64,000 nt of DNA from Ischnura elegans. Taxonomy: Eukaryota; Arthropoda; Insecta; Odonata; Coenagrionidae. Position numbers and translations under genes: made by a program. This document shows, piece by piece, positions 1,398-60,147 of this stretch. Every line of letters starts with the position of its first letter. The first letter of the stretch is position 1. Under the pieces are notes generated by a model. It was given only the letters and a program-made list of their open reading frames with translations. It was not told the DNA's origin and did not search any database. The DNA lies in NCBI RefSeq assembly GCF_921293095.1, contig NC_060259.1, positions 1,302,001-1,366,000 on the forward strand, written 5' to 3'.

Positions 1398-3110
1398 TAG
1401 AAACTATTCACACAGAGCACTATGATGGGAATGTTTTGTCGCGTGAGTTGGACATTTTTTCAGGGTTGAAACAAGGCCCTGAGACTAAACAACCGCCCAG
1501 ATTAGGAAGTATACTATAATTCCCTATGGCCGTGTAAAATGTCATGAACCTGAGTTCCTAAATATGGAAATGAGACATGGTTCCTTATACCTATGCACCC
1601 GGTGCGCTGTAGGGCGAAATTTTTTTTTCGCGTGGGTTGGGGATTTTTTCAGAGTCGAACCGAGATCCTCAGGGTCAAAAACCGCCCGTATTATGAAGTA
1701 TACTATAATTCCATACGACCATGTAAAAATTTCATGCACCTGAGTTCCTAAATATGGAAATGAGACATGGTTCCTTTTACCTATGCACCCGGTGCGCTGT
1801 AGGGCGAAATTTTTTTTCGCGTGGGTTGGGGATTTTTTCAGAGTCGAACCGAGATCTTCAGGGTCAAAAACCGCCCGTATTATGAAGTATACTATAATTC
1901 CCTACGACCGTGTAAAATGTCATGCACCTGACTTCCTAATTAAGGAAGTGAGACATGGTTCCTTGTACCTATACACACGGAGCGCTGTAGAACGAATTTT
2001 TTTTTCGCTTGATTTGGGCATTTTTAAAAAATAAAATCAAGGTCCTCAGACTAAATATCTGCCCGTATTATCAAGTATACTATAATTTACTATCACTTTG
2101 GAATATTTCATGAATCTAACTTCATAAATAAGGGAATAAAACATGGTTCCTTGTACCTATTCACCCGGAGCGCTGAAGTAAGAAAATGTTTGTCGCGTGG
2201 GTTGGAAATTTTTTCAGAGTCGAACCGAGGTCTTTAGGGTAAAATGCCACCCGCATTATCAAGTAGACTATAATTCCCTATCTTTTTGGAAGATTTCATG
2301 AATTTAACTTGATAAATAAGGGAATAAAACATGGTTCCTTGTACCTATGCACTCGGAACGCTGAAGTAAGAAAAATTTTGTCGCGTGGGTTGGGAATTTT
2401 TCCAGAGTCGTACCGAGGTCTTCAGGGTCAAAATCCGCCCGTATTATCAAGTATACTATAATTTCCTATGACCATGGAAAATATCATGCACCTGACTTCC
2501 TAATTAAGGAAGTGAGACATGGTTCCTTGTACCTATACACACGGAGCGCTGTAGAGCGTATTTTATTTCGCTTGGCTTGTAAATTTTTCCAGAGTCAAAT
2601 CGAGGTCGTCAGACTAAAAAACCGGCCGTATTATTAAGTAAACTATAATTTTCTATAATCTTGAATGATTTCATGAATCTAACTTCATAAATAAAGGAAT
2701 AAAACATTGTTCCTTGTACCTATGCACCCGGAGCGCTTAAGTAAGACATTTTTGTCGCGTGGGTTGACAATTTTTCCAGAGTCGAACCGAGGTCTTCAGT
2801 GTCAAAAACTGCCCGTGTTCGCAAGTATATTATAATTTTCTATAACCATAGACAATTTCATGTACCAGACTTCCTAAATAAGGAAGTAAGACATGGTGCC
2901 TTACAACCCATGCATCCAGAGCGCTGCAGTGCGAAATTTATTTTTCCCGTGAGTTGACAATTTTTCCAGAGTCGAACCGTGGACCATAGACTCAAAATAC
3001 AGACGTATCATAAATTTTCATTTTATTAACTATCTATAACAAAACTTTCACTTCCCTGCATTGATTACGTTGTGAGAAAACCGTGTTTCCTTTTACCTAT
3101 GTCTCCCGTT
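1398..3110. repeat. 188-bp tandem satellite, about nine monomers
   Basis: A unit of roughly 188 bp recurs head to tail about nine times. Landmarks such as GGTTCCTTGTACCTAT, then GCGCTG, then a TTTTT-CGCGTGGGTTGG block, then AGTCGAACCGAG, then AAGTATACTATAATT reappear near 1580, 1769, 1957, 2145, 2335, 2521, 2709 and 2896. Divergence is moderate and increases towards 3.1 kb. Open frames inside it on both strands are by-products of the repeat. The unit length is nucleosome-sized, as in many arthropod satellites. It shows no relation to the 181-bp and 175-bp satellites further right. Confidence 0.9.
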
Positions 3111-4690
3111 TAAATGCACGTAAAATTTGAATTCCCGCCGCGCTAGAGGCTCAAGATGGCGGATTACATTGGTCAAGTGCGTGACACGACCTGGCTTTTA
3201 CCGACCTTGCTGGTAAATAGTTCATAAAAGGTTGTTACAGAAACCCATCTCGTCTCCGTTGAGAGAAGCACTTGAGATTTCATTTGCCAAAACAAGATTA
3301 TGCTCCTTTAATGCAAAATTTATCGCTACGTGCTGTCGATATTCGTGTGAACGCATAATCTCGCAGCGTAAACTCGTAGTTCCCGCATTCCAAACCGGAA
3401 AAAGTGACAGCCGATATTCAATTCGGCGGTAAAATCGACTGAACGAAGCAAAAAAAAAACTGTTTATGTATGGAATGAAGTTCCTGCAAGATGGAAAAGG
3501 GGAAGAACTACCTTTACTGACGAGGAGGTAGACACTCTGCTCCACATTGATAGACAGCATCACAGATTTCTCCTCAAGGTCCATTAAGTAATGTAAGAAT
3601 CGCATTGCTAATGTTAATCAATCGCTGTTCTATATCCGCCTCAATATCTTTTCCGAAAATATTATTTACTTCACGACCAAAACGGCTCTCACATAGGCTG
3701 TTTTCAATATATAAATAACAGCTTAATAAAACAGAATGTTTAACAAAAGAAACAAATCAAAATGTTCAAACATAAAAAGGGGGATTATTGGCTATAGGCA
3801 GTGGTGAGTTCAGATGGCATTTTAAGGAGGATATGAAAATATTGGTGTAGGAAAAGAGGTCAAGGGAAGAGCATTTTGAAGCGAGGGAGTTCATGAAGGA
3901 GAGAATTCGGTCGGAAAAGGGGCATTGAAAAATGGAAAGACGGAATCGCAGAATGTGAATCATCTTGTCCAGGCCAAGCTATTTACATCGTCGCCTGCTG
4001 GGTATGCGCGAAAGAGCACGAAAAGAAAATTATAATTTGTTAATTTGGCCCGTACGCACCTTTTTCTTACATATAATGACAAACTTTCGCATGAAAGTTA
4101 CGTATTTATCTTGTGCAAATAATAATGACGACATGCACCTTGATTGACTGCATTTCAAGATGAAAGAAATATTACATTTTGCTTTCGGGTAACCGATATT
4201 ACACGACCAATACTTCTTGTTCGTTAAATAATTAGAAGTAGTGGGAAAAACGGTTCGGAACTTCGGGGAATCTATTAGTGACAAGGCTACGCTGGTAAGT
4301 CTACGGTCAAAGATGTTATGACTAAAGCATAGGATAACTAGGAATGCAAGAACTACAATACCGTAGGTTGTGGTAATAAACAGCGATAAAAAAACTCACA
4401 CGTGATCGAAAACATTCCTTTAAACAATTTTTTCTGCTCTTAATTAAGAGCAGAAAAAATTGTAACCCATTGCGCCCATGGTCAACACATTGCGCCAATA
4501 GTTGTATCCAAATATACTCAAATAACATAATTAATGTAGTCTATGTAGGCGTACAATATAATAGCGACGTAATTTTGCCAAACTACTAATAAGTAGAGGG
4601 TTTTAATCGTGTATAGTAGCACATCTTTAGTCAAAATATTGAAGAATACGCGTACGAAAATACTCTCGTGAAACACTGGAGACCTACTTG
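3110..4690. other. Unassigned region with a faint Myb-like trace
   Basis: No intact gene is visible. A short plus-strand stretch near 3500-3580 can be read as TTFTDEEVDTLLHIDRQ, which resembles the start of a Myb/SANT-like helix of the accessory protein of Harbinger transposons. It is too short to be conclusive. The minus-strand open frame covering 3222-3605 overlaps it and has no recognisable motif. Confidence 0.25.
4424..4463. repeat. Perfect 40-bp palindrome
   Basis: Bases 4424-4463 are perfectly self-complementary around TTAATTAA, with AGAGCAG and a poly-A run on one arm and the reverse complement on the other. It could form a 20-bp cruciform stem. It is followed by two close copies of CATTGCGCC. 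No element assignment. Confidence 0.85.
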
Positions 4691-6148: not shown

Positions 6149-6375
6149 ATTATGAACACCCAATTAATTGTTTGAGGCGTAACTTGGTGAAAGCGATTCA
6201 TAATTAAATTAAGAAAGAAGAACTTTGTACTTTCACATTAATATTTATTCACGACCATGGTTTCAACGTTAGACGTCATCGATGACGTCTAACGTTGAAA
6301 CCATGGTCGTGAATAAATATTAATGTGAAAGTACAAAGTTCTTCTTTCTTAATTTAATTATGAACACCCAATTAA
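6149..6375. mobile_element. PLE-tail insertion flanked by a 19-bp duplication
   Basis: The 19-mer ATTATGAACACCCAATTAA occurs at 6149-6167 and 6357-6375, which looks like a target-site duplication made on insertion into the Harbinger element. The inserted segment starts with GTGAAAGCGATTCATAAT, which is shared with a Penelope-like tail at 51,470-51,487, and then consists almost wholly of a perfect palindrome. Each half carries the hammerhead-like part of that same tail (TAACGTTGAAACCATGGTC, then GAATAAATATT). Confidence 0.7.
6197..6364. repeat. Perfect 168-bp palindrome
   Basis: Every base from 6197 to 6280 pairs with its mirror in 6281-6364, giving two 84-bp arms without a spacer or mismatch. 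The centre is GACGTCATCGATGACGTC. Each arm contains the GAAACCATGGTC part of a hammerhead-like motif, so the unit is a head-to-head duplication of a PLE tail. A palindrome this perfect is either very young or kept perfect by gene conversion. It could also be an assembly artefact. Confidence 0.9.
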
Positions 6376-7189: not shown

Positions 7190-7640
7190 TGCCAATTACT
7201 ACCCGGTGGCCTATCCCCAAAAGCAATTCCATCATTTTTGTGCAGGTCTGAATTATCATCGCTGCTATACTCGTAGATATGTCTACTTGTCCGGGCACTA
7301 GTCAGCCTGGATGGTGAATGAAGAAATAGCTATTGGGCATACGCTATGAAAGAGTACTGAAATAAATTATTAGGTCTTGATTGAATTACGCAGTTCAATC
7401 AAGACCTAATAATTTATTTCAGTACTCCTTCGTAGCTTATGCCCAATAGCTATTTCATCATTCACCTGCCAGGCTGACTAGTGCCCGGACAAGTAGACAT
7501 ATCTACGAGCATAGCAGCGATGATAATTCAGACCTGCACATGAATGATGGAATTGCTTTTGGGGATTTACACTGAAAGCATACCATCAATGAAAAGGTCC
7601 GGAATAGCCTGCATAACTATGGCCACAGGGTAGTAAACCA
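7190..7640. repeat. Large foldback with 173-bp arms
   Basis: Bases 7213-7385 and 7394-7566 are reverse complements (roughly 93-95% by eye) around an 8-base loop. Similarity resumes further out (TTACTACCCGGTGGCC on the left, GGCCACAGGGTAGTAA on the right) after about 50 extra bases in the right arm. The left arm starts a few bases after the Harbinger right end. No coding content and no family recognised. It may be a foldback MITE or an inverted duplication made during repair. Confidence 0.85.
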
Positions 7641-17777: not shown

Positions 17778-18266
17778 CTTAAATAATTTGTTCTTGTGTA
17801 CAATGATAATGTCTATTTCCACTGTTTAAGAGATATGTGACTGTTCAATATATTATTCTTAACTACTGTGTTTATTTTTTCTATTGTTGGTTTTTACAGC
17901 AAGTTTATACGATTATTACTGTATTTTTAAGAGCTTAAAAATATTTCAATCTTATGATAATTGTACATTTTTGTAATTGGGTAATTTTCCCGTCAATAAA
18001 CCATTAAACTATCTTTACTACCCTTGGTCACATCGACCAGTATATGATTTATTTTTAAGCTTTCTGGGTATAAATTCGAATGGATGAATGATCATTAAAA
18101 TAAGGAAATCTGGCGTTTGTTGTGAGCATATTATTTCTGGAAAAAATGTTTATGAACATTTCACAAGACGCCACGAAAATCCACCTCTCAAACATTACGG
18201 GAAATATACATAATGTATATTTTGTGTATTTTTGACCACATTTACATATGTATTTCCTCTGTATTC

Positions 18267-18420
18267 ATACATATGTAAAAGTGGTACGTGTTACACGATA
18301 AATGCATCTATATTTTTTGTGTATTTTTGACCACATTTACATGAGTACTCAAATTTCAAAAATACACAAAAATACAAATGTATTTATCGTGTAACACGTA
18401 CCACTTTGTACATATGTATG
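18267..18420. repeat. Inverted repeat with GTGGTACGTGTTACACGATA arms
   Basis: Left arm (about 18,267-18,325: CATACATATGTA, AAAGTGGTACGTGTTACACG) and right arm (about 18,362-18,420) are near-perfect reverse complements around about 40 bp rich in TTTTGTGTATTTTT. Related ACATATGTAT-rich text continues at 22,381-22,500, after the 4-kb TIR element that splits this repeat cluster. Confidence 0.75.
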
Positions 18421-18436
18421 AACCCAGACAGCACAC

Positions 18437-18657
18437 TGGTAACGGTATACATATACCGTAAGTATACCAGGTGTATACTGTTTCCTTGAGAATCTGTATA
18501 CATGTTTTAGATTCTAAGTATCCTGAAGCGTATACGTATACAGTATACGAAAGGTATCTGTATACCTTTCATATACTGTATACGTATGTGCTACATATGG
18601 AAACAGTATCTGAGAGGTATATGTATACCTTTCATATACTGTTTCCATATGTAATCT
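18437..18657. repeat. Left subterminal GTATAC-rich repeats
   Basis: Short overlapping palindromic units such as GTATACGTATAC, CAGTATACG, AGGTATATGTATACCTTTC and GTTTCCATATG recur and form local hairpins. Similar units line the right end (22,155-22,366). Subterminal repeats of this sort usually serve as transposase binding sites; that role is inferred. Confidence 0.65.
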
Positions 18658-30800: not shown

Positions 30801-30829
30801 CTCCCCTAAAAGAGCATTAAACACTAGAA

Positions 30830-32466
30830 AATAGCATATCAAGAAACAATCTCAAAACCGTAATCCTCTGCAATTTTAGAATGTGAATGACCTAATAACA
30901 CGTTTCTTAACGATATCTGCCCAATGGTTGGGAATTTAAACATCATCCAATACACTTATTGATTTCCACTTTTTACACCATAGTCACGAATAAAAATTGA
31001 AAATGGGAAAATGACATATCATTAAACACCCTTTGAAACCATATTCCTATCCATTTTTAGAATGTGAATGACTAAATATCTTGAATCTACGCGATATTTA
31101 ACTGAACAAAAAGAAAAAAACTCATCCCAGAGTTTAAAAGTTTCAAAATTTCAACACATTAGAGACATAAAAACCATTTACTAAACAAAAATGATGCTTC
31201 ATAAAACAACCCTGAAACCAAGTTTCTTAACGATATACCCAAATCGATGAGAAAATAAACATCATCCCATAGTTTTATAAATGGAAACCTTTTACATAAT
31301 ACAGAGGAAATTACCACTCAACATATGAAGATTACATATCATGAACACCAAACACAGCAATAGATGAGAATATAAGCCTCATTCCACAGTTTTATTGATT
31401 GACCCTTTTTACGCAATATTGACCAATTGCCAATTTATCATGGGAAAATGGCATATCATTCAACACCCTTAAAAAACTAATTCCTTTGAAGTTGAAGAAT
31501 TTGAAAGACTATATTTCTCGTTTCTTAACGATATCTACACAATGGATGATAAAATAAACCTCATCCCAAAGATTTATTGTATGCCAGTTTATACTATAAC
31601 GGCGTATTATCAATTGATAATAGATTATATTACAAATAAAATATCATAATAATAATTATTAAAAATTACAAATACAAAAATTGGGTTTAAAGAGTGTGTC
31701 ATGATATACATTATCCCTTGTTAAAATGTTGTTAAAAATGTTGTTAAAATGTAGAAATAAATTCCCTTGTCATTCTAGAATTTGAATGACTATATATATC
31801 TCTTCACTACACGATCTCTACTCAATGCATGAAAAAATGAATCCTCATCCCATGGTTTTATTCATGAACACTTTATACGTAGAAGAGATGAATTTCAAAA
31901 TTAGCGAGGAAAAATGCATATCATGAAAAAAACCTAAAAAATCAATTCGATTGTAATTTGAATGACTAAATATCGATATATTCTCAATGGATGATAAAAT
32001 AAACCTCATACAACAGTTTTAAAGGTTGAAACTATTTACGAATTAGAGAGGAATTCACCGCTTCAAGGGAAAATGGCTTATCATGAAACACCCTTAAAAA
32101 CCGTGTATCTATGATATTTCAGAATTTGAATGACTAAATATCTCGTTTCTTTGCGATATCTACCCAGTGAATGAGAAAATAAACCTAATGCGACAATTAT
32201 ATTTAATGTTAGTTTTTACGCATTCGATACGAATCAAGCATTTAACAAGGGGAAATGCATATCATGAAACACTCTTGAAAACCTAATCCCTATGTAATTT
32301 TAGAATTTGAATGGCTCAACATCCTCTTTCTACACGATATCTGCGCAATGGATGAGAAATAAACCTCATCACAAAGATTTATTTATTGACACTTTTTACG
32401 CTATGAGGACGAATAATAATTTATCCAGGGAAAATGACATATCATGAAACACCCTTCAACCCATTA
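30830..32466. repeat. 181-bp satellite, first block (about nine monomers)
   Basis: Monomers of about 181 bp recur with the ordered landmarks GAATTTGAATGACTAAATAT, CACGATATCTACCCAATGG, GAGAAAATAAACCTCATCCC, TTTTATTGATTGACACTTTT, TACGCATTAGAGACGAATTA, AACAAGGGAAAATG and ATATCATGAAACACCCTTAA. Divergence between neighbours is substantial (perhaps 15-25%), which suggests an old array. The block is cut at 32,466 by a piggyBac element. Confidence 0.9.
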
Positions 32467-35400
32467 ATCCCCCCAGCGTTGCGTGTACGCAACATTATGG
32501 AATTTTAATTATTAGAAAAAGCCTTATCTTCAGGATAATTTTTTTCGTTTTACTGACATTTGGAAATATCTCTTGTTCAATTTTGATGTTTTCGTCAAAA
32601 TTTTCATTAAAATTTTAACATTTTTTTAATTTTAAATTTTCCTTTTTCAAAGCGCTTATGTACTACAATTTGTAAATGATATTTCATTAAGATTAATTGA
32701 GGAGTCTTACAGCAGGTAGTTTTTCCTCTTAGTTCTAAGCTTCCTTATTAATCATTTTCAGTTCTGTCTTGATCGTTCATCATTACTAGCATAAAGGTTT
32801 TCTTTGAAAACAATATTGCGTTTACGCAACGATGGGAATTCTCTGGTTGATCAAGGGGCTTTTCTCTAAGCATAAAGCAGCTCGTAAAAATGGCTTTTTA
32901 AAAGGACAACGTAGTACTCAGGTGACAGTTTAGCTGTATTTGTGGTATTCACGGAGTAAACAAAGCAATGGGTGAATGGCTTTTGGAATTCCATATGGTC
33001 ATCTCTACGAATTTTAGATTCAACTCTGTTACTTAGTTGAGCAAAATTGTTGCGCGCCTACATGGAACCGGTACAGGGCAAGGTCATTCTCAGGAAATGT
33101 TATTTAGCAGACATTGAATTCAGATTTCGATGTATTCAATTATAGGATAGGATGACAGGTTGAGAAACGAATTAGTTGAAGCAGGAGTATGGCAGAAGGT
33201 GAAGTGTTCCTCTAGTCACTCCTAGGATTTTTCTCTGTACTTACCATTCCATCTTCTAGCGCTTAGGTGTGGGATGCGATGGTGAGGGATGATAAAAATC
33301 AGCGTTCCATGGGGTAGATACCAGTTAAATTGTCCTCTGAAATGCCTCTTCATCTCTCTTTCAGTAATTATATTAATAATATTGCAATATTTTTTGGTCG
33401 GCTTGTTGTAACAAAATTCATCCAGATGAAAAAGTGAGGAAAATTTTACGCCTCATTTCCACGCCTCAGAAGTATACTTTGGAAGAAGCGTCAAGAAGGT
33501 AACTGAAGAATATTAATTAACGAGAGATGTAGTGTATAATCTTTTGTAAACTTAGGAACTCCAAGAAAGATTACAGCATTTCAGATAAGGATGATTTCAG
33601 GGGTACATCACGGCTGATGAAATAGTGGCTGCACTGATAGAACTTAGCGAGGAAAGTGATGCGGAGGTACTCCCTCCTGAAGTTTGTGAATTCACCAAGG
33701 ATATCAAGGAGGATATCAAGGATATAGTCATAAATAACGGCGGCATTCCCCTGCCTTAGGATATTACCGAGGCTTTTGAAATACATTCAAATACGCTACA
33801 ATGCAAGCCACAGTTTACTCCAGTAGAATCTAAAAATCAATCGTCAAGTTAACGCGCACACCCAGATAAAAGATACAGATAGCTAAATGGGAAAAATAAG
33901 AGTTACTTCCTTTCGAACCCCAAATTTCTTAGAGAAAATAGCAACAGAAACCCTCATTACTCAGTATGCACGCCATTCACCAATTGAGATCTTTCACTCA
34001 TTTATCACTGAAGAATTACTTCAATTAAATTTGAAAAATTCAAATGAGTATGCTAGAGAGGAAAATGACCATATTTTTACTCTGAGTATGGCAGATTTAA
34101 AAGAAATTCTTTGAGATACTAATACTGTCGAGGTACAATACAATAACGCCCACTAACTTGTACTGGACAAACCATGTCTGTCCTATTAGTAAGGTAATAT
34201 ATGATGCGGAAAAGATTTCATAAAATTAAAATTATCTACACCTCTCCGATGATTCTCAACTACGCAAAAGTGAAAATTTCAGGCCTTTTCTGAGTAGACT
34301 AAACCAAAATTCCACTCAGTGTGGAATTTTTCTAACAAATTGTCAATTGATGAGCAAATGCGGGCGGCACTCAGTCTAGCCTCATCTACAGGCCATTTCT
34401 ATCACTTTTTTTATATGACTCTTCTATATTTGCTGAATTTTTGTAAGTCTGCAAAACATCTTACCATGTATTTTCATAGTTAATTCACAAATTACAGTCT
34501 GTTGGCAACTCATAGTGATAATGGTTATTTTGCAGTAGGAACTGAAGGAGAAAATAGAATGGGAAATGGCACAGTTATGTCTTCGTGGGATTAGGCAAAA
34601 AACAAAAAAGGGATTAGACGGTTGTCGTTTGACAAGTCAAAATATATTCTCCTAGTCCGATGGCATGATAATTGTGTCGTCACCGCTACTTCAAACTACT
34701 GGAATATTGCACGTATATATTATAGTAAGGACGAAAAGGTATAACCAAAAGCAGAAGAAAAGTGAAACGATTCCGCAAACAAATGTCATCAACGATTACA
34801 TTCAGGAAATGGAAGGGGTAGATTTACACGATAACTATGCTGCATGTCACCGTATTCAGGCTAGGGAAAAAATGGTGGTGGCTTCTATTCATAAATGGGC
34901 TCTACAGTGCAATGGTGACTGCGTGGCGATTGTACTTCATGGTCACGGGCGGAGCAATTCCTCAGTTAGATTTCCGGTCGGAGATCATAAATATTTTACT
35001 GACGCAAGAAGTGCTTTCCAATACAAAGGCTGATGGCATTTGGCATAAAAATCGCTGGGCATATGCGGGACGCCCTTGGAAAAATGACATTCCCCAGCAT
35101 GTCCGTCAATTGAGAATAAGGAATTTCATCCTAAGGAATACTGATAACTCTCGGCAAAGACGTCGATTGTGCAAATCATAGACAACTTTTGAGTGTGTAA
35201 AGTGCAATATTTAACTTCACGCAGAATTTTTTCACAAATGTAATCATAAGTGAAGATGAAAAATAAAAGATGCAACCTAAGTTACAAAATTTCATTTTTC
35301 ATTTATATTTACGGGAGTTTTCCCAGCGTTGCCTAAACGCAAAATCATGTAAATAATACATTATAATGAGTATAATAAGGCTTAATGCAAATTCATTATA

Positions 35401-35480
35401 AATATACCAAAAAAAACCTGAATATATACGAAAAAATCAAGGTTTAAAGTTCTACATACAGTCTGGGAAATAATGGGTAA
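32467..35480 (+). mobile_element. piggyBac transposon, degenerate, inside satellite
   Basis: The array stops at TTAA followed by TCCCCCCAGCGTTGCGTG (about 32,465-32,484), a fitting piggyBac end with its TTAA target. AGCGTTGCGTAAACGCAA-type motifs recur inverted at about 32,817-32,835 and direct at about 35,328-35,343. The transposase remnant occupies 33.59-35.18 kb. The right end could not be fixed; satellite sequence is back by about 35,490. Confidence 0.65.
33590..35181 (+). pseudogene. piggyBac transposase remnant, plus strand
   Basis: An acidic N-terminus (ELSEESDAEVLPPEV) is followed by SPIEIFHSFITEELLQLN and NEYAREENDHIFTLSMADLK, the family's N-terminal domain. SIDEQMRAA near 34,340-34,370 matches the DDE core. 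Then come NCVVTATSNYWNIA, KKSETIPQTNVINDYIQEM and EGVDLHDNYAACHR, the 'vYnkhMGGVDl-D' block. In another frame RLGKKWWWLLFINGLY and AIPQLDFRSEI match the C-terminal region. At least three frame changes and several stops are present. Intact members have about 550-600 residues, so most of the length is covered. Confidence 0.8.
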
Positions 35481-35489
35481 AGAACTAAT

Positions 35490-35895
35490 TCCCATCTTTT
35501 TTAGAGTTTGGCTGACTAAATATCTTGATTCTACACGATATATACCCAAAGAATGAGAAAAAAACCTAACACTACAGTTAAATTTATTGACACTTTTTAC
35601 GCATTAGAGACGAATTAACGATTTAAAAAGGGAAAATGACATTTTACGAAATACCCTTAAAATTCGAATTCCTATGCAATTTTCGAATTTTAATGACTAA
35701 AAATCTTGTTTCTTCACGATATCTACCGAATGTATGGTAAATAAAACATCATCCCACAATTTAATAGATTGACACTGTTTACACAATAGCGACGAATTAA
35801 CCATTTAACAAGGCAAAATGACATATCATGAAACACCCTTAAAAACCAAATAAGTATGCAATTTTAGAATTTTAATGAATTAATATTCTGTTTAT
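35490..35895. repeat. 181-bp satellite, second block (about two monomers)
   Basis: The same monomer as in 30.83-32.47 kb resumes after the piggyBac, with GACTAAATATCTTGATTCTA, TTGACACTTTTTACGCATTA and ACGAATTAACGATTTAA-type landmarks. It is cut in mid-monomer (after GAATTAATATTCTGTTT) by the RTE LINE. The other half of that monomer lies right of the LINE at 41,141. Confidence 0.85.
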
Positions 35896-35927
35896 ACTCC
35901 TTCTATCTCCTTGTTTATATATCCTTT

Positions 35928-36490
35928 CCCTTGGGCTACAACCTTGTCGCGGTGGAGAGGCTTGAGCGTTCCTATGACCCCTAGAGCTGCACTGGCGGGA
36001 TTAATTTCTAAATTATTCCCGATAGGGCCACCCATGCCAGATCGGTCGAAGGGTAGGAGCCAGACGAAAGGTAGTCCACGTGATGGTGTCACGTGAAAAA
36101 CACTGTTAGAATGGAAGTGGGAAACCCTACCAACTATCCCTTCCCTGAAAACATGGAGTACAACCAAATGAGCCTCGGAATCTCATCGCCCGGGACCCGT
36201 CCGCAAAGGGCGGGTGTCGGGCACGTCAGCGAGGTCGGCTTGAGCTTGAGGTTCCTATGACCCCTAGAGCTGCGCTGGCGTATTCCCGGTAGGGCCACCC
36301 ATGTCGAAGGGTAGGAGCCAGACGAAAGGTAGTCCACGTGATGGTGTCACGTAAAAAAACACTGTTGGAATGGAAGTGGGAAACCCTACCAACTATCTCT
36401 TCCCTGAAAACATGGAGTTTGATCAAACTAGCCTCGGATGGAATCGCGGCACCCGGCCCTTAAGGGCGGGTGTCGTAGGTGGCAAGGTCC
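35928..36490 (+). promoter_or_regulatory. RTE 5' UTR made of two tandem monomers
   Basis: Unit 1 (35,928-36,237) and unit 2 (36,238-36,490) share TTCCTATGACCCCTAGAGCTGC, split here as TTCCTATGACCCC and TAGAGCTGC, then GAAGGGTAGGAGCCAGACGA, AGGTAGTCCACGTGATGG, CCCTACCAACTATC and TTCCCTGAAAACATGGAGT. Unit 2 has an internal shortening of about 40 bp. Tandem 5' monomers act as promoters in some LINEs (mouse L1 is the known example); that role here is inference. Confidence 0.6.
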
Positions 36491-36804
36491 TCGGAGTCCT
36501 TATCATGCGAAATCCTTGCAGTGACGTATCATCATCATCTTTTTCAGCATCAGCGGCAGCATCCAAGGAGCAGGACAAGAAGACCAAGAGGATGGAGAAG
36601 AAAAAGGCATCGATGAATGTAGGGACGTGGAATGTGAGGACAATGATGAGGGCGGGTAAACTAGAAAATATAAAAAGGGAAATGCAGAAAGGGAATATAG
36701 ATATCTTGGGTCTATCCGAAGTTAGGTGGAAGGACAGTGGGGACTATTGGAGTGACGGGGACAGGGTTATATATAGTGGTGGAGAGGAAAGTCAGCGAGG
36801 GGTA

Positions 36805-38101
36805 CCCTGGGGAAACTCATGGAGAGGACGCTGCTGCCCTTCATCCTCAAGCATACAGAGAGCCGTGACATCCTTCCACTGGAGCAGTACGGATTCCGGG
36901 ATCACCACTCCACCACTCACCAGCTGGTACGGATGGTGGACTTCATAACTTCAGGCTTCAATAGGAGATGCTGCGCGGCGGCTGCCTTTTTCGACGTCCA
37001 GAAAGCATTTGACCGAGTTTGGAACGACGGCCTCCTATTGAAGCTGAAGCACTTTGGATTTCCCTTCTGGCAGCGGAGACTGATCGCTGCGTACCTGAGG
37101 AAGCGGACGTTCTCCGTCATCTGGGGTAGAGCCACCTCCATGAAGAAGACCATCCGAGCCGGGGTCCCCCAAGGATCGGTACTCGGACCATTGCTGTTCA
37201 ACATCTTTACGGCAGATATTCCGCGGGACTTCGGATGGAACGTGATCGTGACACTGTTCGCAGATGACGCAGCAGTGGTGGCGCGTTCCTGGAAATCCCA
37301 TATGGCGTCCTCCTATCTCCAACGGACTGTGGACCAACTCCTACCGTGGTACGCAACATGGCGTATAACCATCAACGCCAAGAAGACAAACGCCGTCTTC
37401 TTCTCCGCCACGCCTAAGACGCCGATTCCGGGGGAGATTCTAGTCGACACGGAGGAAGCACCTTGGAAGACGGAGGCGCTGTATCTTGGAGTGACGCTGG
37501 ACCGAGGCCTCTCCTTCCGCCAACACGCCCTGAATATCTCGCGAAGAGCACGAACGCGGAGATTCCTGCTTTCGCCGTTGCTGCGGTCGAAATTCCTCTC
37601 CTTGGAGCAGAAGTTGAGGATTTACAAAATGGCCATCCGGCCAATACTGTCGTATGCTGCCCCTGCGTGGAGCGGCCGCATACCCACAACATGGAGCCAA
37701 CCCATCAGAGTGGCAGAGAATACCACGCTCAGGACCATCCTCGCTCTTGGATGGAATTACCACCGAGTGCTGCTCTACGCCCTGACGGACATGGAGCCGA
37801 TTGAAGACTACCTCAAGCAGACTTCCAAGACCTTCTTCCAGAAGGCGAAGAGCTCCAGCATCGAAGCCATCAAGACGATAGCGGACACCAAACCAACCAC
37901 ATACGGTCGGCACAAGAGACCGTGCTCTTCTACTGGAGAGGAGGAAGACCTACCGCAGAAGAAGAGACAGAGGTGAAGGACCCTCACTAATTTCACCGAC
38001 GGGAGAAACTCTCCGAAAACACATCGGCTGAGAAACTATAACGTTGGACAGCCCAGTAGGACCAGGCAATGAGGACTGCCTGGCCAGCACACATCCTTTC
38101 A
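36805..38101 (+). mobile_element. 5'-truncated Jockey-type LINE inserted in the RTE
   Basis: The 11-mer AGCGAGGGGTA flanks the insert (36794-36804 and 38102-38112), and removing the insert plus one copy restores the RTE reading frame. The 1,297-bp insert contains one long RT frame and a 3' part without a clear poly-A tail, ending CACACATCCTTTCA. It is GC-rich compared with the host sequence. Confidence 0.85.
36819..37976 (+). CDS. Jockey-type reverse transcriptase, 5'-truncated
   Basis: A 385-residue open frame with RT motifs in order: LEQYGFRDHHSTTHQLVRMV, FFDVQKAFDRVWNDGLLLKL (catalytic Asp), AGVPQGSVLGPLLFNIFTAD, and LFADDAAV (about 37,255-37,278). Then come TNAVFFSAT, LYLGVTLDRGLSFRQH and RPILSYAAPAWSG. 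The C-terminal end is basic (RHKRP, KKRQR). It lacks the endonuclease and the first RT motifs because the copy is 5'-truncated. The frame is unbroken, so the insertion is younger than its RTE host. The first in-frame ATG (36819) is fortuitous. Confidence 0.85.
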   Translation: MERTLLPFILKHTESRDILPLEQYGFRDHHSTTHQLVRMVDFITSGFNRRCCAAAAFFDVQKAFDRVWNDGLLLKLKHFGFPFWQRRLIAAYLRKRTFSVIWGRATSMKKTIRAGVPQGSVLGPLLFNIFTADIPRDFGWNVIVTLFADDAAVVARSWKSHMASSYLQRTVDQLLPWYATWRITINAKKTNAVFFSATPKTPIPGEILVDTEEAPWKTEALYLGVTLDRGLSFRQHALNISRRARTRRFLLSPLLRSKFLSLEQKLRIYKMAIRPILSYAAPAWSGRIPTTWSQPIRVAENTTLRTILALGWNYHRVLLYALTDMEPIEDYLKQTSKTFFQKAKSSSIEAIKTIADTKPTTYGRHKRPCSSTGEEEDLPQKKRQR

Positions 38102-39385
38102 AGCGAGGGGTAGCTTTAGTATTAAACGGGAAGATGGGTAAGCGTGTGTTAGGCATAGAGCAGGTAAGCGATAGGATTCTGGTGGTAGAAATTGAGGCGC
38201 GGCCCACCAACCTTATGGTGGTCCAGATTTACATGCCCACCAGCAATCATAGGGAGGAAGAAGTAGATGAGGTGTATGAACAGCTTGAGGAAATAATTAG
38301 AGACACACCGGGTAAGAAAAATCTGGTAGTGATGGGGGACAGGAACGCTTCAGTCGGGGAAGGGAGGGATGGAAACGAAATAGGAGAATTTGGATTAGGA
38401 ATTCGGAACAACAGGAGAGAGAAAGCAGCAGAATTTTGCAGGAGAAACAAGTTATTCATTACAAACACTTGGTTTAATCATCACAAAGGGCGAAGGTAAA
38501 CATGGAAAAGTCCTGGGACTATTGGAAGGTATCAGATAGACTACATCATGGTAAGGCAGAGGTTTAGGAATAGTGTGAAAAACTCGCGCAGCTTCCCTGC
38601 AGCGGATGCAGATTCAGACCACAATTTAGTACTTATGAAATGCAACGTCAGATTCAAAAGACTTACGAAAGGTAGGAAGGCGAAGAAATGGAATCTAGAA
38701 GCTCTAAAGGGGAGTATAAGGAGAGAATATCAGGAACTTGTTGACAATAGCACCCGGGGTATTGAAAGTCCAAAAACTGTTGAGGAAAGATGGGATAATA
38801 TAAAAACTGGAATAGTCAAAGCAGCTGAGAAGTTAATTGGGTACGTTGACAGTAGAAGGATAAAGAAACCGTGGATAACGGAGAACATGATAAGGGAGAT
38901 GGAGGTGAGGAGGAAGTGGAAGAACGTGGACACAGAACAGGACAAAAGAATATATAGATTAATTAATAATCAATTACGGCGTGAGACAAAGAGAGCAAGG
39001 GAGGCTTGGTGGAAAAGACAGTGTGAGGAAATGGAAAAGTTTCAGAAAGAAGGAGAGGTACGCGCGTTATATGCCAAAGTTAAGTCGCTGTCGGGCGGCA
39101 AAAGAGGGCAAACCATGCCTAAAATTAAGGCTAACGATGGAAGGATGCTAACCGAGCGAGAAGAGGTACAGAGTAGATGGAAGGAATACGTGGAGGATCT
39201 CTATGAAGGGAGGAACAGACCAGAGAGATTGACTTTAGACGAAGAAGGTGAAGTGCAGGAGGATAATTTTGGGCCGGGGATGTTAGATTCAGATATAGAG
39301 AATGCACTTCGTGATATGAAGGCCAGGAAAGCAGTAGGCGTGGACAATATCCCGTGTGAGCTGCTGAAGAGTCTAGGGAGGGATA

Positions 39386-39704
39386 AAGGAAACGATACCC
39401 TAGGGCGGGCTCGCGGGGATACACTCCTAGGGCAGGGACTGTAAGCGCTAGCTTTTATCCTCTGCACCCAGAAGGGGAAGGACGGGAAGGAACAAGGAAG
39501 GAGGCGCCGCCGCGATGAGAGCACGACGACGCCTCTGGGGAGGGGATAGGGAAGGAAGGGAAGGCACGAGGAATCCCGCACCGTCACAAAGGCGGGCGGG
39601 CCCTACTAACAGCGAAACCAAGCGAAACGCAATTAATATGCTACCAATCCTAAAGAGTGGATTTTCCTATGAGGAAGAAAAATCCATCGATCCAATCTGT
39701 AGAT
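39386..39704. mobile_element. 319-bp insertion with 14-bp target duplication
   Basis: TCTAGGGAGGGATA occurs on both sides (39372-39385 and 39705-39718), and the RTE frame (SLGRD, then SKKWFLELIHSIYEEG) makes sense when the insert is removed. The insert is GC-rich, with GGCGCCGCCGCGATGAGAG and GGGAAGGCACGAGG, and ends in an AT-rich stretch. No tRNA-type A/B boxes are evident. It behaves like a SINE or short truncated retrotransposon; family unknown. Confidence 0.75.
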
Positions 39705-39718
39705 TCTAGGGAGGGATA

Positions 39719-41132
39719 GTAAGAAATGGTTTCTCGAACTAATTCACAGCATCTATGAGGAGGGGTGTTGGCCGGAAGATTTTGTGAAGACGGTTCTAAT
39801 TCCGCTACCAAAAAAGAAGAAAGCTGTTAAATGCGGGGAATATAGGACTATTAGCCTAATATCTCACGCGGCGAAAGTGGTACTGAGGATATTGAACAGA
39901 CGAATGGAGGCGAGGACAAACGAGCATTTGGTTGATCAGTTTGGTTTTAGAAAAGGGAAGTCAACTCGTGACGCAATAGCAGTAATGAGGTCCCTGGTGG
40001 AGAGGAACATAGAATATGACCAGGGCGTGTATGCCTGCTTTGTGGATTTTGAAAAAGCATTTGATAGAGTGAATTGGGTAAAGTTAATGGATATTCTCAA
40101 GAAAATAGGTGTAGATCGGAGGGATAGGCGATTGATTCGTAATCTGTATATGGCACAGTCTGCGCAAGTGAGGGTAGGCGACGGAGAATCTGTGTGGGCA
40201 AGAATGGGCCGCGGAGTGAGGCAAGGCTGTCCTCTATCGCCGCTGCTCTTTAACGTGTACGCTGAAGAGATGGCAAGGGAAGCGTGGGATGAGTTAGAAG
40301 CTGGAGTAAAAGTGGGAGGATAGATGTTCAAATCAGTGACATTTGCGGATGACCAGGCGTTGATTAGCTAGTCAGCGAGGGGGCTTCAGGCTCTAGTGGA
40401 TGCGTTACACGAGCGTTGCGAGGAATATAAGATGAGGATTAATCACAAGAAGACCAAGGTCATGCGGTTTTGTAAAGCCTCAAGAGCGAGGAATGCTAGA
40501 CTTAAGATAAAGGTGGGTGGTGAAAACTTGAGCAGGTTGAGCAGTTCAACTATTTAGGCAGTACGTTAGAGGAAAACGGATAAAGTAGTACGGATATTAG
40601 GAAGCAAATTGCACTAGCAAAGGAGGCGTTCATGAACAGAAAGGAGCTTCTGAGAGGTTCCTTATGTAAGAGTTTAAAGAAAAGGTTAGTGAAGAGTTTG
40701 ATCTGGAGTGTAGCGCTTTGCGGTGCAGGAACGTGGACACTTAGGAAGGAGGACGAGAGAAGACTCGAGGCATTCGAGATGTGGGTGTGGCGAATAATGG
40801 AGAAGGTGAAGTGGACGGAGAGGAGGAGGAACGACGAAGTGCTGGATATGGTTGGCGAGGATAGGCAGCTTTTAGATGAGATACGGAGAAGGCAGAAGGT
40901 ATAGATGGAGTGAGTACTTAGCGGGGATGGGATGTTGAAAACAGTGTTGGAGGGAAGAATATTAGGTAAACGAGGGAGGGGAAGGAAAAGAATAGGAATT
41001 TTAGATAGAATGAAGGGTAGTGGCACTGACCTGTTGTGCACTGAAGAGGGAAGTGCAAGATGTAAGGGGATGCGCCCGGAATTCTTCGTTAGCACTCCAT
41101 GGAGACCTACCTTAATCGGTAGAATACTTTAA
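39719..41132 (+). pseudogene. RTE LINE ORF: reverse transcriptase (3' part)
   Basis: Motifs in order: DFVKTVLIPLPKKKKAVKC, EYRTISLISHAAKVVLRIL, LVDQFGFRKGKSTRDAI, CFVDFEKAFDRVNW (catalytic Asp), GVRQGCPLSPLLFNVYAEEM and, past a stop at 40,321, TFADDQAL (about 40,335-40,358). Another stop lies just after this, and a frameshift follows near 40,530. EQFNYLGSTLEENG then continues into IWSVALCGAGTWTLRKEDE, FEMWVWRIMEKVKWTER and GKRGRGRKRIGILD. The RT core is otherwise well preserved, so the copy is not very old. Confidence 0.8.
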
Positions 41133-41140
41133 TAATAATA

Positions 41141-43950
41141 CATGATATCTACCCTCTGGGTGAGAAAATAAACCTCATCCCACGGTTTTATTAATTGATA
41201 TTTTTTATGCATTATACCCGATTTATAATTTAACAAAGGAAAAAGATAATAAAACAAGGAAAAAATGATAATAAAGGATAGATAATCAAACACTGGTAAA
41301 AAAACCAATTCCAACGTAATTTTAGATTTTGAATGACAAAATATCTCTTATCTTCACGATATCTACCCAATCGATAGGAAAATATACCTCATCCCATACA
41401 TATAATTGATAGAAATTTTTTACGTCATAGGCACGAATAAGCAATTTAACAAGAGAAAATGCTGTAAACAAACACTAAAAAAACAAATTCCAATGTAAAT
41501 ACAGAATTTGAATGACAAAATATCTTATTTGTTCACGATAATTAGACAATTGAGAAGAAAATAAACCTTAAATCACAGTTTTATTGATTGAAACTTTTTG
41601 TGCATTAGAAACAAATTAACAATTTAACAAAGGAAATGACATATCATGAAACACACTTAAAAATTGAATTTGAGTTACAAAATATCAACTTTATCCACGA
41701 TATCTACCCAATGGATTGTGTGATAAACCTTGTTTAAAAAAATTTATTGATTACACTTTTTACGCAATAGAGAGGAAATAACCATTTAACAAGGGACAAT
41801 GACATTATTAAACACCCTTAAAAACGCACTCCTGTGCAAATTTAGAATTTGAATGACTAAATATCTTGTTTCGTCATGATATCAACGCAATGTGTTAGAA
41901 AATAAACCTCATCCCACAATTTTATGTATTAACACTCTTTACAGTACACAATTACAGACTTTGAATGACTAAATACCTTGTTTCTTCATGGATGATAAAA
42001 TAAAGCTCATCCCCCAGTTTTAAATATTGACATTTCTTACGCATTAGACAAGAATATACAATTTAGCAATGGAAAATGCATGTCCTGAAACACTCCTTAA
42101 AACCCAATTCCTATGTATTCTAGTATTTGAATGACTATTTACCTTGTTTTTACAAAATATCTACCAAATGGATGAGAAAATAAACCTCAGGTCACTCTTC
42201 TATTGATTTAAAAATTTTACGCATTAGACTTGAATTAACAATTTAACAAGAGGAAATGCATATCACTAAACACGCATAAAAACTCAATACCTATGCAACT
42301 TCAGATTTTAAATGACTACATATGCTGTTTCTTCGGGGTATCTATCTAATGCATGAAAAAATACACCTAATCCCACAGTTATATTTATTAACACTTTTTA
42401 CGTAGTGGAGCCGAAATTCAAAATTAACGAAGGAAAATGTATATCATGACACATTGTTAATAACCCTTTTTGTTTGTAATTTTAGATTTGGAATGACTAA
42501 ATATCTTGTTTCTACACGATATATACCCAATTATTGAGAAAATAAACCTCATTCCGCATTTTTATATTCACACTTTTTACGATTTACACACGAAAAAATA
42601 ATTTAACAAGGGTAAATGCATATTATGAAACACTCTTAAAAACCAATTCCTATGTAATTTCAGAATTAAAAATGACTAAATATCTTGTTTCACTAGATAA
42701 TATACCCAATGGATGAAAAAATTAACGTCATCTAATTTAGAGATTCATAATTTAATGCAATATGGTCGAATTAAACATTATTATTCCCTTAGAAAACCAA
42801 TTCCCATGCAATTTTGCTATTTCAATGACTTTCAAACACGATACCTACCCCATGGATGAGAAAGTGAAACTCACTCCGTTGTTTTTATGATTGACAATTT
42901 TTACGAATTAGACACGATGTAATAATTTAACATGGAAAAATGCATTTCATCAAACACACTCAAAATCCCAATTTATGTGTAATTTTAGAATTTAATTGAC
43001 AAAATGTCTTCTTTCTTCACGATATCTACTAAATGGTTGGGAAAATAAACCTCATTACACAGTTTTTTGACTGAATATTCTTACTCTATAGAGACGAATT
43101 AAGTATTTAACAAGGAAAAATGCATACAATAAAACACTCTTTAAAACCCAATCGCTATGTTATTTTAGAATTCAAATGATTAATTATCTCCTTTCTTCAC
43201 GATATCGACCCAATGGATGATAAAGTAACCCTGATCCCACAGTTTAATTTATTGGCATTTTTTACGCAAAAAAGACGAATTACCCATTTAACAAGGGAAA
43301 ATGACAAATCATGAAACACCCTTAAAACCCATATCCTATGCAATTTTTTGAATTTGAAAGACAAAATATCTTGTTTCTTCACGTTATCCACACAAATTAA
43401 GAGAAAAAAACCCAATCCCACATTTTAATTTGTTGACACTTTTCACGAAATAGAGACGAATAAAATTTTCACAAGGGAAAATGCATATCATGAAACAATC
43501 TTACAAGCCCAATTCGAATATAATTTTATAATTTGAATGACCAAATATCTTGTTTCTACACGACATATACCCAATGGGTGAGAAAATAAACCTTATTCCA
43601 CAGTTTATATTATTCACACTTTTTACGCAATAAACACGAATAAAAAATTTAACAAGGGAAAATGAAATATCATGAAAAATATTAAAACCCCAATTCCCAT
43701 GTAAATTTTAGAATTTGAATAACTAAATATCTTGTATCTACACGATATCTACCCAATGGATAATAAGGTAACCCTGAGCCCACAGTTTTATTTACACTTT
43801 TTATAGAATAGAGAGGAATTAACAATTTAACAAAGGGAAATGCATGTCATGAAACACTCATAAAAATCCAATTTTTATCTTATTTGATAGTTTGAATTAC
43901 AAAATATCTTATGTTTACAGGATATTTACTCAATATATGAGAAAATAAAT
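41141..43950. repeat. 181-bp satellite, third block (about 15 monomers)
   Basis: The same monomer continues right of the RTE insertion, beginning in mid-unit with GATATCTACCC. About 15 diverged units run to about 43,950, some with internal deletions (for example near 41,940-42,000 and 42,740-42,800). The last unit ends TATGAGAAAATAAATTCTTC, after which a different satellite starts directly. Confidence 0.9.
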
Positions 43951-51440: not shown

Positions 51441-51454
51441 TATTTCTCAAAGAA

Positions 51455-51575
51455 CTATGTGAAAGCGATTCATAATACCTGATGATGACGTCTAACGTTG
51501 AAACCATGGTCGTTTCAATGTGTGAATAAATATTCACGTGAAAGCACAAAGTTTCTTCTTTCTCATTTTACTTTA
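51455..51575 (+). mobile_element. Penelope-like tail with hammerhead motif (second family)
   Basis: GTGAAAGCGATTCATAAT is followed by CCTGATGATGACGTC, TAACGTTGAAACCATGGTC, GTTTCAATGTGTGAATAAA and GTGAAAGCACAAAGTTTC. Much the same text forms the palindrome at 6197-6364. The motif layout is that of a PLE 3' end. It sits in a gap of the 175-bp satellite. Confidence 0.6.
51474..51520 (+). ncRNA. Hammerhead-like motif in PLE tail
   Basis: Core CUGAUGA (51479-51485), stem II GACGU/ACGUU around CUA with one extra U, core GAAA, stem III AC and GU around CAUG, and cleavage triplet GUC, followed by GUUUC. All core bases fit a type I hammerhead with minimal stem III; the extra U next to stem II and an unclear stem I lower confidence. 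Confidence 0.55.
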
Positions 51576-58538: not shown

Positions 58539-58561
58539 TATATATATATATATATATATAT
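58539..58561. repeat. TA microsatellite
   Basis: Pure TA repeat, close to the left end of the PLE with inverted arms. Confidence 0.9.
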
Positions 58562-58869
58562 GTTACTTATGAAAGACACCACAGGTGATATGAATATAAA
58601 TAAATGCCATGATAGGCCACAAAAACACAGACACAAATAAAAGAGGACTCACACGTTAGTTTCTTTCAAATTTTCGACCTCTTAGGGTCTTCGTCGGGAG
58701 GGAGGCAAGAAGAGACTGAGGAGAAGGACAGAGGATGCCTAAAGGCTGAGGAGATTAGGATAAGATAGGGGAAGGGAGAGGATGGGGAATGGGGGGTGGG
58801 AAAGAGGAGAAGGCCATGGAGATCAGTGGGCCCTGTTAAGGCCAGGCGGCAGACTCAGTAAGAGGCCAC

Positions 58870-59652
58870 AGAATTTGCAATAATCCCGAATCCTTGGACA
58901 TTTTTCTTAATAATCTTCACCACTCCCTTCTTCGTAGAGGATATCCTGAGAACCTTCTGCGTAAGAAAATCCTACACAATACTTACAAACCCAAAATTCA
59001 TACCAAGAAACAAACCACACATCTCTCCCTCTCCACCACTTACTTCCCGGGTGTGCAGGCTTTAAACAGAATCATCAAAAGCCTTTTTCCGATTCTTTCT
59101 AACAATGTCACTACTGGAAAAATCTTCTCTAGCTGTCCATCCTTATCCTTCCGTCGGCCGCCAAATCTATCTTCCATTCTCAAAACGACTAAACCACTCT
59201 CAAGGTTCACCACCCGTACTAGCTCTTTACCTATCCCTTGCCAACGACCCCGGTGCAAAACGTGTGCTATCCTCATTACCCAGTCACTTCCTAACAAATT
59301 TCTCACTTTTCCGCTTCCTTCCACTCCATCCCCCACCTGTACAACCAGTAATGTAATTTATATCCTTTTATGTAATTCCTGCCCCGCCTTCTACATTGGT
59401 TTAACCACCACCTCACTCAACCTACGGATTAACAACCATCGAGCTTCTTGCAAACCCACTTCCCAATCTGCTTCGCTTCCTGTCCCTACCCACGCCTTTT
59501 CCCATAATTTAGAATTTGATGACTGCTTTCACATAGGAATACTTGCCTCTCTCCCACCCTCCGCCTCACCGCTAGAATTAAAAACTCTTGAATTGTCTTC
59601 CATTTGGCTACACCAAGCATTCAACCCGCCTGGCCTTAACAGGGCCCACTGA
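58870..59652 (+). CDS. PLE C-terminal region with GIY-YIG endonuclease
   Basis: An open frame of more than 250 residues without a clear AUG start. RGYPENLLRKKILHNTY, then FPGVQALNRIIKSLFPIL, then FRRPPNLSSILKTTKPLS and PCQRPRCKTCAILITQ match the region between RT and nuclease in PLEs of the Neptune/Nematis type. Then NVIYILLCNSCPAFYIGLTT is the GIY-YIG core, followed by LRINNHRASC, with HAFSHNLEFDDC further on. The frame ends LNRAH inside the right inverted arm. The RT domain is absent. No stop interrupts what remains. Confidence 0.75.
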   Translation, partial: RICNNPESLDIFLNNLHHSLLRRGYPENLLRKKILHNTYKPKIHTKKQTTHLSLSTTYFPGVQALNRIIKSLFPILSNNVTTGKIFSSCPSLSFRRPPNLSSILKTTKPLSRFTTRTSSLPIPCQRPRCKTCAILITQSLPNKFLTFPLPSTPSPTCTTSNVIYILLCNSCPAFYIGLTTTSLNLRINNHRASCKPTSQSASLPVPTHAFSHNLEFDDCFHIGILASLPPSASPLELKTLELSSIWLHQAFNPPGLNRAH

Positions 59653-59774
59653 TCTCCATAGCCTTCTCCTCTTTCCCACCCCCCATTCCCCATCCTCTCC
59701 CTTCCCCTATCTTATCCTAATCTCCTCAGCCTTTAGGCATCCTCTGTCCTTCTCCTCAGTCTCTTCTTGCCTCC

Positions 59775-59815
59775 CTCCCGACGAAGACCCTAAGAGGTCG
59801 AAAATTTGAAAGAAA
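59775..59815 (+). ncRNA. Degenerate hammerhead-like core in PLE arm
   Basis: CCGACGA stands where CUGANGA is expected (one core change), then a stem GACC/GGUC with a CUAAGA loop, then GAAA. No NUH cleavage triplet is obvious after GAAA. The same motif is present inverted in the left arm (about 58,660-58,700). Likely a decayed or variant ribozyme. Confidence 0.4.
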
Positions 59816-59869
59816 CTAACGTGTGAGTCCTCTTTTATTTGTGTCTGTGTTTTTGTGGCCTATCATGGC

Positions 59870-59871
<2 letters not shown>

Positions 59872-59912
<41 letters not shown>
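59872..59912. repeat. TA microsatellite
   Basis: About 20 TA units adjoin the right end of the inverted-arm PLE. Confidence 0.95.
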
Positions 59913-59949: not shown

Positions 59950-60147
59950 AAACATACAAATAAATTCACAGGTAAGGAAAGAAAGGGATAGGAACAGGTA
60001 ATAGAAAAAGGACGAGGACAACGGTGCTGTGGTAGATGGAAAAAAGCCAGAAATCAGAGGGTAAAAATGCGACCTGACTGGGACTCGAACCCAGAACCTC
60101 CTGGTTGCCGGCAAGGTGCTCTACCAGTTGCGCTACCAGGACGCTTA
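59950..60147 (-). mobile_element. tRNA-derived SINE, minus strand
   Basis: On the minus strand the head reads TCCTGGTAGCGCAACTGG (A box) ... GGTTCTGGGTTCGAGTCCC (B box), close to a tRNA with a GGC anticodon-like loop (alanine-type). The T stem CTGGG/CCCAG is intact but the acceptor stem has mismatches. The body continues GCATTTTTACCCTCTGATTT to CTTACCTGTGAATTTATTTG. A second, headless copy lies inverted at 60,305-60,457. Confidence 0.7.

Follow-up and report, generated by a model that had tools for sequence, protein, structure and literature searches.

In a 64,000-nucleotide stretch of the genome of the odonate Ischnura elegans (NCBI RefSeq assembly GCF_921293095.1, contig NC_060259.1, positions 1,302,001 to 1,366,000 of the forward strand; the whole stretch is hereafter called the window), a perfect palindrome belongs to the hundreds of insertions that a Penelope-like element (PLE) has left in this genome, many of which are mirror-image pairs joined head to head. 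The mirrored arms are the 3' part of the element, as its longer copies show, and the insertions end at two points 42 nucleotides (nt) apart. The 42-nt piece between these points corresponds to the PLE tail; in the accessible part of the work on Poseidon, a PLE of the green anole (Frangieh et al. 2024, PMC11167929), the tail is flanked by two neighbouring internal sites at which reverse transcription starts. The reading favoured here, with a probability of about 0.66, is that a single RNA is reverse-transcribed from both nicked target strands, with a separate start for each strand, and that the ends of the two complementary DNAs (cDNAs) are then joined by microhomology. The observations behind it are that a double insertion carries one tail, that its arms match in length and share variants, that the target is symmetric, and that the junctions show microhomology.

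The family in the genome

The search covered 1.72 Gb in 110 contigs. The exact junction between tail and arm occurs 418 times (control, 0), and the tail motif had no match (0) in viral contigs. From the first 100 of these 418 junctions as listed, 80 loci (81 junctions) were picked uninspected, leaving out 8 that already belonged to a set of best-scored copies (L001-L030) and 11 on contig C4; after removal of three duplicates (L056, L059, L110) and two complex loci (L082, L048), 75 loci were counted. The sample follows contig order, requires an exact tail junction and comes from one genome. The 30 best-scored copies were chosen by likeness to the window copy, and they are included in the analyses of subfamily sites, rare variants, target letters and arm distances given below.

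The 75 sampled insertions comprise 56 head-to-head doubles and 19 single or other loci, the latter made up of 10 single tailed arms with a target repeat of at least 9 bp, the complex locus L063 and 8 unassigned loci. An earlier note on this DNA had proposed to look for further head-to-head copies, whose absence would have counted against an inverted insertion; they are the majority in the sample. At 60 of the 75 loci there is a target repeat, 9-16 bp long and in most cases 12-13 bp; the arms of the doubles measure between roughly 50 and more than 1,100 nt, and junctions are mostly specific to one copy (77 distinct among 86 doubles, best-scored copies included). As to the complex loci, L082 forms with L139 a pair of one tail-less and one tailed arm with a 12-bp target repeat, and L048 with L144, read by eye, is a single insertion of 3 kb that lacks a tail and has a short repeat.

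One tail per double insertion

In all of the sampled doubles (56/56) the second arm ends at element coordinates 33-44, the proximal start lying at 42; that is, it lacks the tail. The 30 best-scored copies show the same pattern, the value of 20 for L029 arising because the alignment extends into the target repeat. Exact T-ends (85 of 337 examined) fall at exact tail junctions in 41 cases and elsewhere in 44, and 34 of these 44 face a tailed arm head to head. The other ten were read by eye: L148 is a double whose junction is mutated, L141, L142, L143, L146 and L147 are single tail-less arms with visible target repeats, L144 is the far end of L048, and L140, L145 and L149 are unassigned. Because single insertions exist both with a tail (10 loci) and without one, each start works alone, and an independent choice of start should therefore yield many like pairs; within the exact patterns, no pair with two tails or none was seen in this family.

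A second PLE family, also represented in the window, gives a similar picture. Among the first 100 of its 205 listed ends, 16 of 17 head-to-head groups carry one tail, 14 of them by exact match and two more (L151 and L153/L154) on reading, their tails being mutated.

Matched lengths and common source of the arms

Across the 56 sampled doubles the 5' ends of the two arms are correlated (Spearman 0.75), and they lie no more than 30 nt apart in 48, compared with a mean of 17.0 and a maximum of 29 in 20,000 shuffled pairings. Of the 14 pairs in which neither arm stops short of 140, 13 lie within 30 nt (4.4 expected). The length difference takes both signs, with 19 longer, 24 shorter and 13 within 3 nt.

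The arms of one insertion also agree in sequence. At five subfamily sites, after pairs with an allele beyond the two commonest had been dropped per site (for instance, the 13 tailed arms that are gapped at site 50), the two arms carry the same allele in 71/71, 78/78, 61/61, 36/37 and 10/10 pairs, with 41.5, 41.6, 32.1, 27.7 and 5.1 expected from random pairing. In the 80 of 86 doubles used for counting rare variants, 15 such variants are common to both arms of one insertion, against 0.12 by chance. Finally, in the two youngest large subfamilies the arms are closer within than between insertions (distances of 0.0005 vs 0.0013 and 0.0047 vs 0.0109).

Target site and junctions

Among doubles whose target repeat measures 11-14 bp (n=68), the letters that flank it read TTAAC next to the tailed arm and GTTAA at the opposite end, position -2 being A in 52/68 (p 1.6e-14) and position +2 being T in 37/68 (p 5.2e-5). 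The target is symmetric, TTAAC-N-GTTAA, and since the letters flanking the repeat are so on both sides, each strand seems to be cut at a like half-site. At L001, L030, L068 and L101, target letters match the RNA past the proximal start, which may reflect pairing of the primer; in most copies they do not match.

Arms meet or overlap in 20 doubles, and the overlap is at least 2 nt in 13 of these, against 17% in simulation. Twenty fillers of at least 8 nt match the element or the flank better than shuffled fillers do (9.85 vs 7.0 nt). End joining by microhomology or by polymerase theta is an established process, and the junctions resemble its products; an activity of this type would be the candidate for the joining step.

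The window palindrome and its parts

A scan of the window for palindromes places the perfect 168-bp palindrome at 6197-6364, with a spacer of 0 as the earlier note had it, the runners-up among perfect palindromes reaching only 40 bp. The two 84-bp PLE arms that had been proposed are mirror-symmetric; their outer 8 bp nevertheless differ in origin, the left ones (TTCATAAT, 6197-6204) being part of the element and the right ones (ATTATGAA, 6357-6364) part of the target repeat, so that the true mirror arms measure 76 bp each. The insert thus consists of a 42-nt piece, a 76-nt arm running leftward and the identical 76 nt running rightward, both arms stopping at coordinate 118. The sequence ATTATGAACACCCAATTAA is repeated exactly at 6149-6167 and 6357-6375, and this 19-bp repeat had been taken as the target duplication. 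As its final six letters, AATTAA, also form the end of the element tail, 19 bp is only an upper figure, and the duplication is probably 13 bp, the usual length in the family. A weak match to mir-2849 at 6236-6325 (28.6 bits, gathering score 100, E 1.7e-4) is probably due to the hairpin alone.

From 1,397 first-look candidates, the whole 189-bp insert was found at 40 scored places, itself included, the others having 91-97% identity. The copy at 51.47 kb, from whose tail the unit had been thought to derive, is only 81% identical to the window arm (90 aligned columns, two gaps) and was dropped as a parent; it is the only exact site where tail and ribozyme motif are directly joined. This relative is itself probably a head-to-head insertion in which the tailed arm is the tail alone.

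Identity of the element and the presumed ribozyme

Two reading frames of the long copy L150, of 646 and 472 amino acids, match the Pfam reverse transcriptase RVT_1 (E 2.2e-8 and 1e-8), and comparison with solved structures gave weak reverse-transcriptase matches (best E 0.01). The stretch GVYRLKCECNAVYVGQTGRQFQERVKEH of L150 resembles the GIY-YIG endonuclease motif of PLEs, although a Pfam search of the element at E up to 10 reported no GIY-YIG domain. Other traits of PLEs are present: a pseudo-long terminal repeat (pLTR) with an internal tail and a start of reverse transcription inside the RNA, as read from the insertion ends, and inverted or tandem copies with short target duplications. At L048 and L082 the 42-nt tail runs on into further element sequence, and the tail therefore lies inside the RNA.

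A hammerhead ribozyme in the pLTR is common among PLEs without being strictly defining. The motif CTGATGA..GAAA..GTC, read by eye, is presumably a hammerhead core, and the join of the window palindrome does lie at GATGA within it, as had been pointed out. The Rfam hammerhead families gave no match at gathering score in the whole window, and searches at E up to 10 with the palindrome, with the copy at 51.4 kb, with the PLE at 58.6 kb and with L088, a longer copy, gave none either; the hammerhead label rests on the reading of the motif. The lowest-energy fold is not a hammerhead, and the pattern ATGTGAATTTATTCA was not found in the window. That arms end at the ribozyme cleavage site was considered and rejected: the site lies at coordinate 90 by hand count, and arm ends cluster near 75-83 and 112-127.

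Proposed mechanism and alternative explanations

Under the favoured reading, the element would be an endonuclease-type PLE, the enzyme of which would nick both strands of an AT-rich target at the half-sites TTAAC-N12/13-GTTAA. One free 3' end would then prime at the proximal start and give rise to the tail-less arm, and the other would prime at the distal start, 42 nt downstream, and give rise to the tailed arm, with the same RNA molecule as the template of both cDNAs. If the proximal start were used first, the distal one would remain free, and neither would serve twice; because one site could not be used twice on one RNA, a double would have one tail, and because both cDNAs would run to the same broken 5' end, its arms would match in length, unmatched doubles being those in which one copying stopped early. 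Microhomology-type end joining of the two cDNA 3' ends would finally produce the head-to-head palindrome with its copy-specific centre. As the two strands showed no difference in start site in vitro (PMC11167929, in its accessible part), either strand may take either site. The earlier note was right in kind in proposing the insertion of a PLE as an inverted pair joined head to head; of the two routes that it suggested, the data agree best with priming on both nicked strands and do not require template switching. A fold-back of the cDNA followed by a switch to the RNA over the 8 bp common to palindrome and target was discarded, since the junction of tail and arm is constant across unrelated targets.

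Several observations weigh against this reading. In 8 of the 56 doubles (L036, L047, L068, L070, L088, L095, L096, L099) the arms differ by 47-1044 nt, and 88 rare variants are confined to one arm. In the oldest subfamily the arms are no closer within than between insertions (0.0267 vs 0.0271), and in a small fourth group (n=8) the two distances are not clearly different (0.0048 vs 0.0050). One second-family group, L152, in a TA-rich stretch, looks tail-less at both ends. Moreover, the start site was equal between strands in vitro and a pairing of two sites is not reported in the accessible part of that study (PMC11167929), and two RNAs from one source locus would likewise yield identical arms.

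This last point leads to the explanation that each nick primes on its own transcript, for instance on sister transcripts held by a protein dimer; a dimer has been predicted in the anole system (PMC11167929). Such a scheme would account for the head-to-head doubles, for the symmetry of the target and for the arms that occur singly; by itself, however, priming on two RNA molecules leaves both the single tail (56/56) and the matched 5' ends (48/56) unexplained, and the agreement of the arms rules out different source copies as a rule while being compatible with sister transcripts. We consider this explanation unlikely, if by no means negligible. Self-priming, as put forward in 2013 for rotifer PLEs (PMC3846280), would have a strand fold back near its end and be copied, with an antisense template, and it would readily give identical arms, matched lengths and palindromic joins. 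Yet a fold-back copy attached to the target should continue through the tail, the second arm copying the first to its end, whereas in every sampled double it ends at the proximal start, which is also used alone in single tail-less insertions. A simple fold-back further predicts a loop and a fixed sign of the length difference, whereas flush palindromes, such as the window copy, and both signs are seen, although later loss at the centre could blur this. We regard self-priming as quite improbable.

Equalisation of the arms after insertion, by gene conversion or correction of quasi-palindromes, would also produce shared variants. The persistence of the 88 one-arm variants speaks against it, as does the fact that the arms of old insertions are no more alike than those of young ones (0.0267 vs 0.0005 and 0.0047), and the tail rule and the symmetry of the target would stay unexplained; we attach very little probability to it. 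The 40 scored copies of the whole insert might suggest a fixed palindromic element, namely a MITE-like or foldback unit moving as a whole, which is refuted as a general account by the diversity of junctions and retains at most a marginal role; the range of arm lengths, the reverse transcriptase in long copies and the rare variants common to both arms also speak against it. Perfect palindromes can, lastly, be errors of assembly. The window copy has a target repeat on each side, and dozens of further loci show the same build with junctions and target repeats of their own; an artefact at this locus is therefore very unlikely, to the point of being practically dismissed.

Second family and other features of the window

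The 58.6-kb PLE of the window, a member of the second family, has the same build as the palindrome, with a tail at its left end and none at its right; that the palindrome is a lone snapshot of the process is not supported. Second-family units are also repeated in tandem at a period of about 3.30 kb, and some of these arrays are head to head (C1:147986994-148001774, C5:3805350-3825028, C8:27880596-27891168, C11:78485835-78502379). In three head-to-head arrays a unit length specific to the array is common to both arms: 3310,3310,3310|3310 in C1, 3303,3304,3304|3304,3304 in C5 and 3302|3302,3302 in C8. These shared lengths hint at a circular or multimeric RNA template, while the array at C5:75381100, which mixes units of 3302, 3303 and 3304, argues against a circular RNA. 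As a tentative generalization, to which we give somewhat less than an even chance, PLEs would copy a single RNA twice from two dedicated neighbouring starts, one per nicked strand, with the tail as the distance between the starts, and the RNA of the second family may be circular and copied repeatedly on both strands.

At the loci read, second-family insertions lie in (TA)n microsatellites (window 58540-58562 and 59876-59912; L155-L159), and at L155 and L156 one (TA)n stretch contains two insertions. The coordinates of the PLE features of the window are collected in Table 1.

Table 1. Parts of the window palindrome and related PLE features (positions in the window)
Feature	Positions	Strand	Remarks
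Left target duplication, 13-bp core (probable)	6149..6161	.	exact repeat 6149-6167/6357-6375; 19 bp if 6162-6167 counted; 12-13 usual in family
42-nt tail of tailed arm, distal start side	6163..6204	-	aligns to tail of reference copy L150; first letters overlap repeat 6149-6167
Tailed arm, 76 nt beyond tail	6205..6280	-	element 5' end at 6280 = coordinate 118
Tail-less arm, 76 nt	6281..6356	+	begins within presumed ribozyme core (GATGA), ends at proximal start
Right target duplication, 13-bp core (probable)	6357..6369	.	reaches 6375 when counted as 19 bp
Diverged older relative, 81% to arm	51453..51573	+	tail abuts ribozyme motif directly
Second PLE family, tailed arm	58562..58849	-	tail 58562-58599; inverted repeat 58588-58849/59626-59887 at 98.5%
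Second PLE family, tail-less arm with coding sequence	58850..59875	+	left boundary approximate

Other repeats were noted in the window. An imperfect palindrome of 354 bp with arms 94% alike lies at 7213-7566, 850 bp from the 168-bp palindrome, and no likeness to the PLE was seen in it; a perfect palindrome of 40 bp lies at 4424-4463, and imperfect inverted repeats are clustered at 18258-18428 and 18524-18653. The inverted repeat 59954-60099/60315-60460 (146 bp, 98.6%) overlaps a tRNA gene match at 60070-60142 and adjoins (TA)n; it is perhaps another head-to-head insertion, of a tRNA-derived element. Long, diverged stretches of tandem repeats occupy 1404-3014 and 30813-43949.

Comparison with known systems

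In twin priming of LINE-1 elements, the second target strand primes on the element RNA, and an inverted structure with a target duplication results. The doubles described here share with it priming of the second strand on RNA (in the reading that we favour), inversion and target duplication. The two systems differ in that LINE-1 primers copy adjoining parts of the RNA, which would give adjoining, non-overlapping arms, whereas here the same 3' part is covered by both arms in 56/56 doubles, which are hence mirrored.

The systems closest to the present one are PLEs themselves, and it is important to stress that inverted copies with an optional tail (PMC3846280) and two starts with extension of both strands (PMC11167929) are already in print. 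The anole enzyme cuts and extends both target strands in vitro, and Poseidon, an endonuclease-bearing PLE with two adjacent starts, the tail between them, extension of both strands and AT-rich targets, resembles the present family as read here; it differs in that the in vitro products are those of single strands, and paired starts, matched arms and one template are not reported in the accessible part of that study (PMC11167929). In the PLEs described in 2013, inverted pLTRs are mostly head to head with palindromes at the inverted junction, a 31-bp tail is optionally present on one inverted pLTR, and target duplications measure 8-10 bp, all of which recalls the doubles of I. elegans; the differences are that few copies were available, that self-priming was the explanation offered and that a one-tail rule does not appear in the accessible text (PMC3846280). 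In the literature searched, the coverage of which leaves out most subscription papers, we found neither the one-tail pairing rule nor the length match nor the proposal of a single RNA.

How PLE integration is completed, and why only some copies have a tail, is an open question in both of these studies, as far as their accessible parts show (PMC3846280, PMC11167929). Between self-priming and two starts on a single RNA, the insertions analysed here favour the latter, and they lead to sharp predictions for the purified anole system as well as for any genome rich in PLEs. If the favoured reading is true, PLEs would provide a form of target-primed reverse transcription in which both mirrored halves of the element are made as cDNA from RNA.
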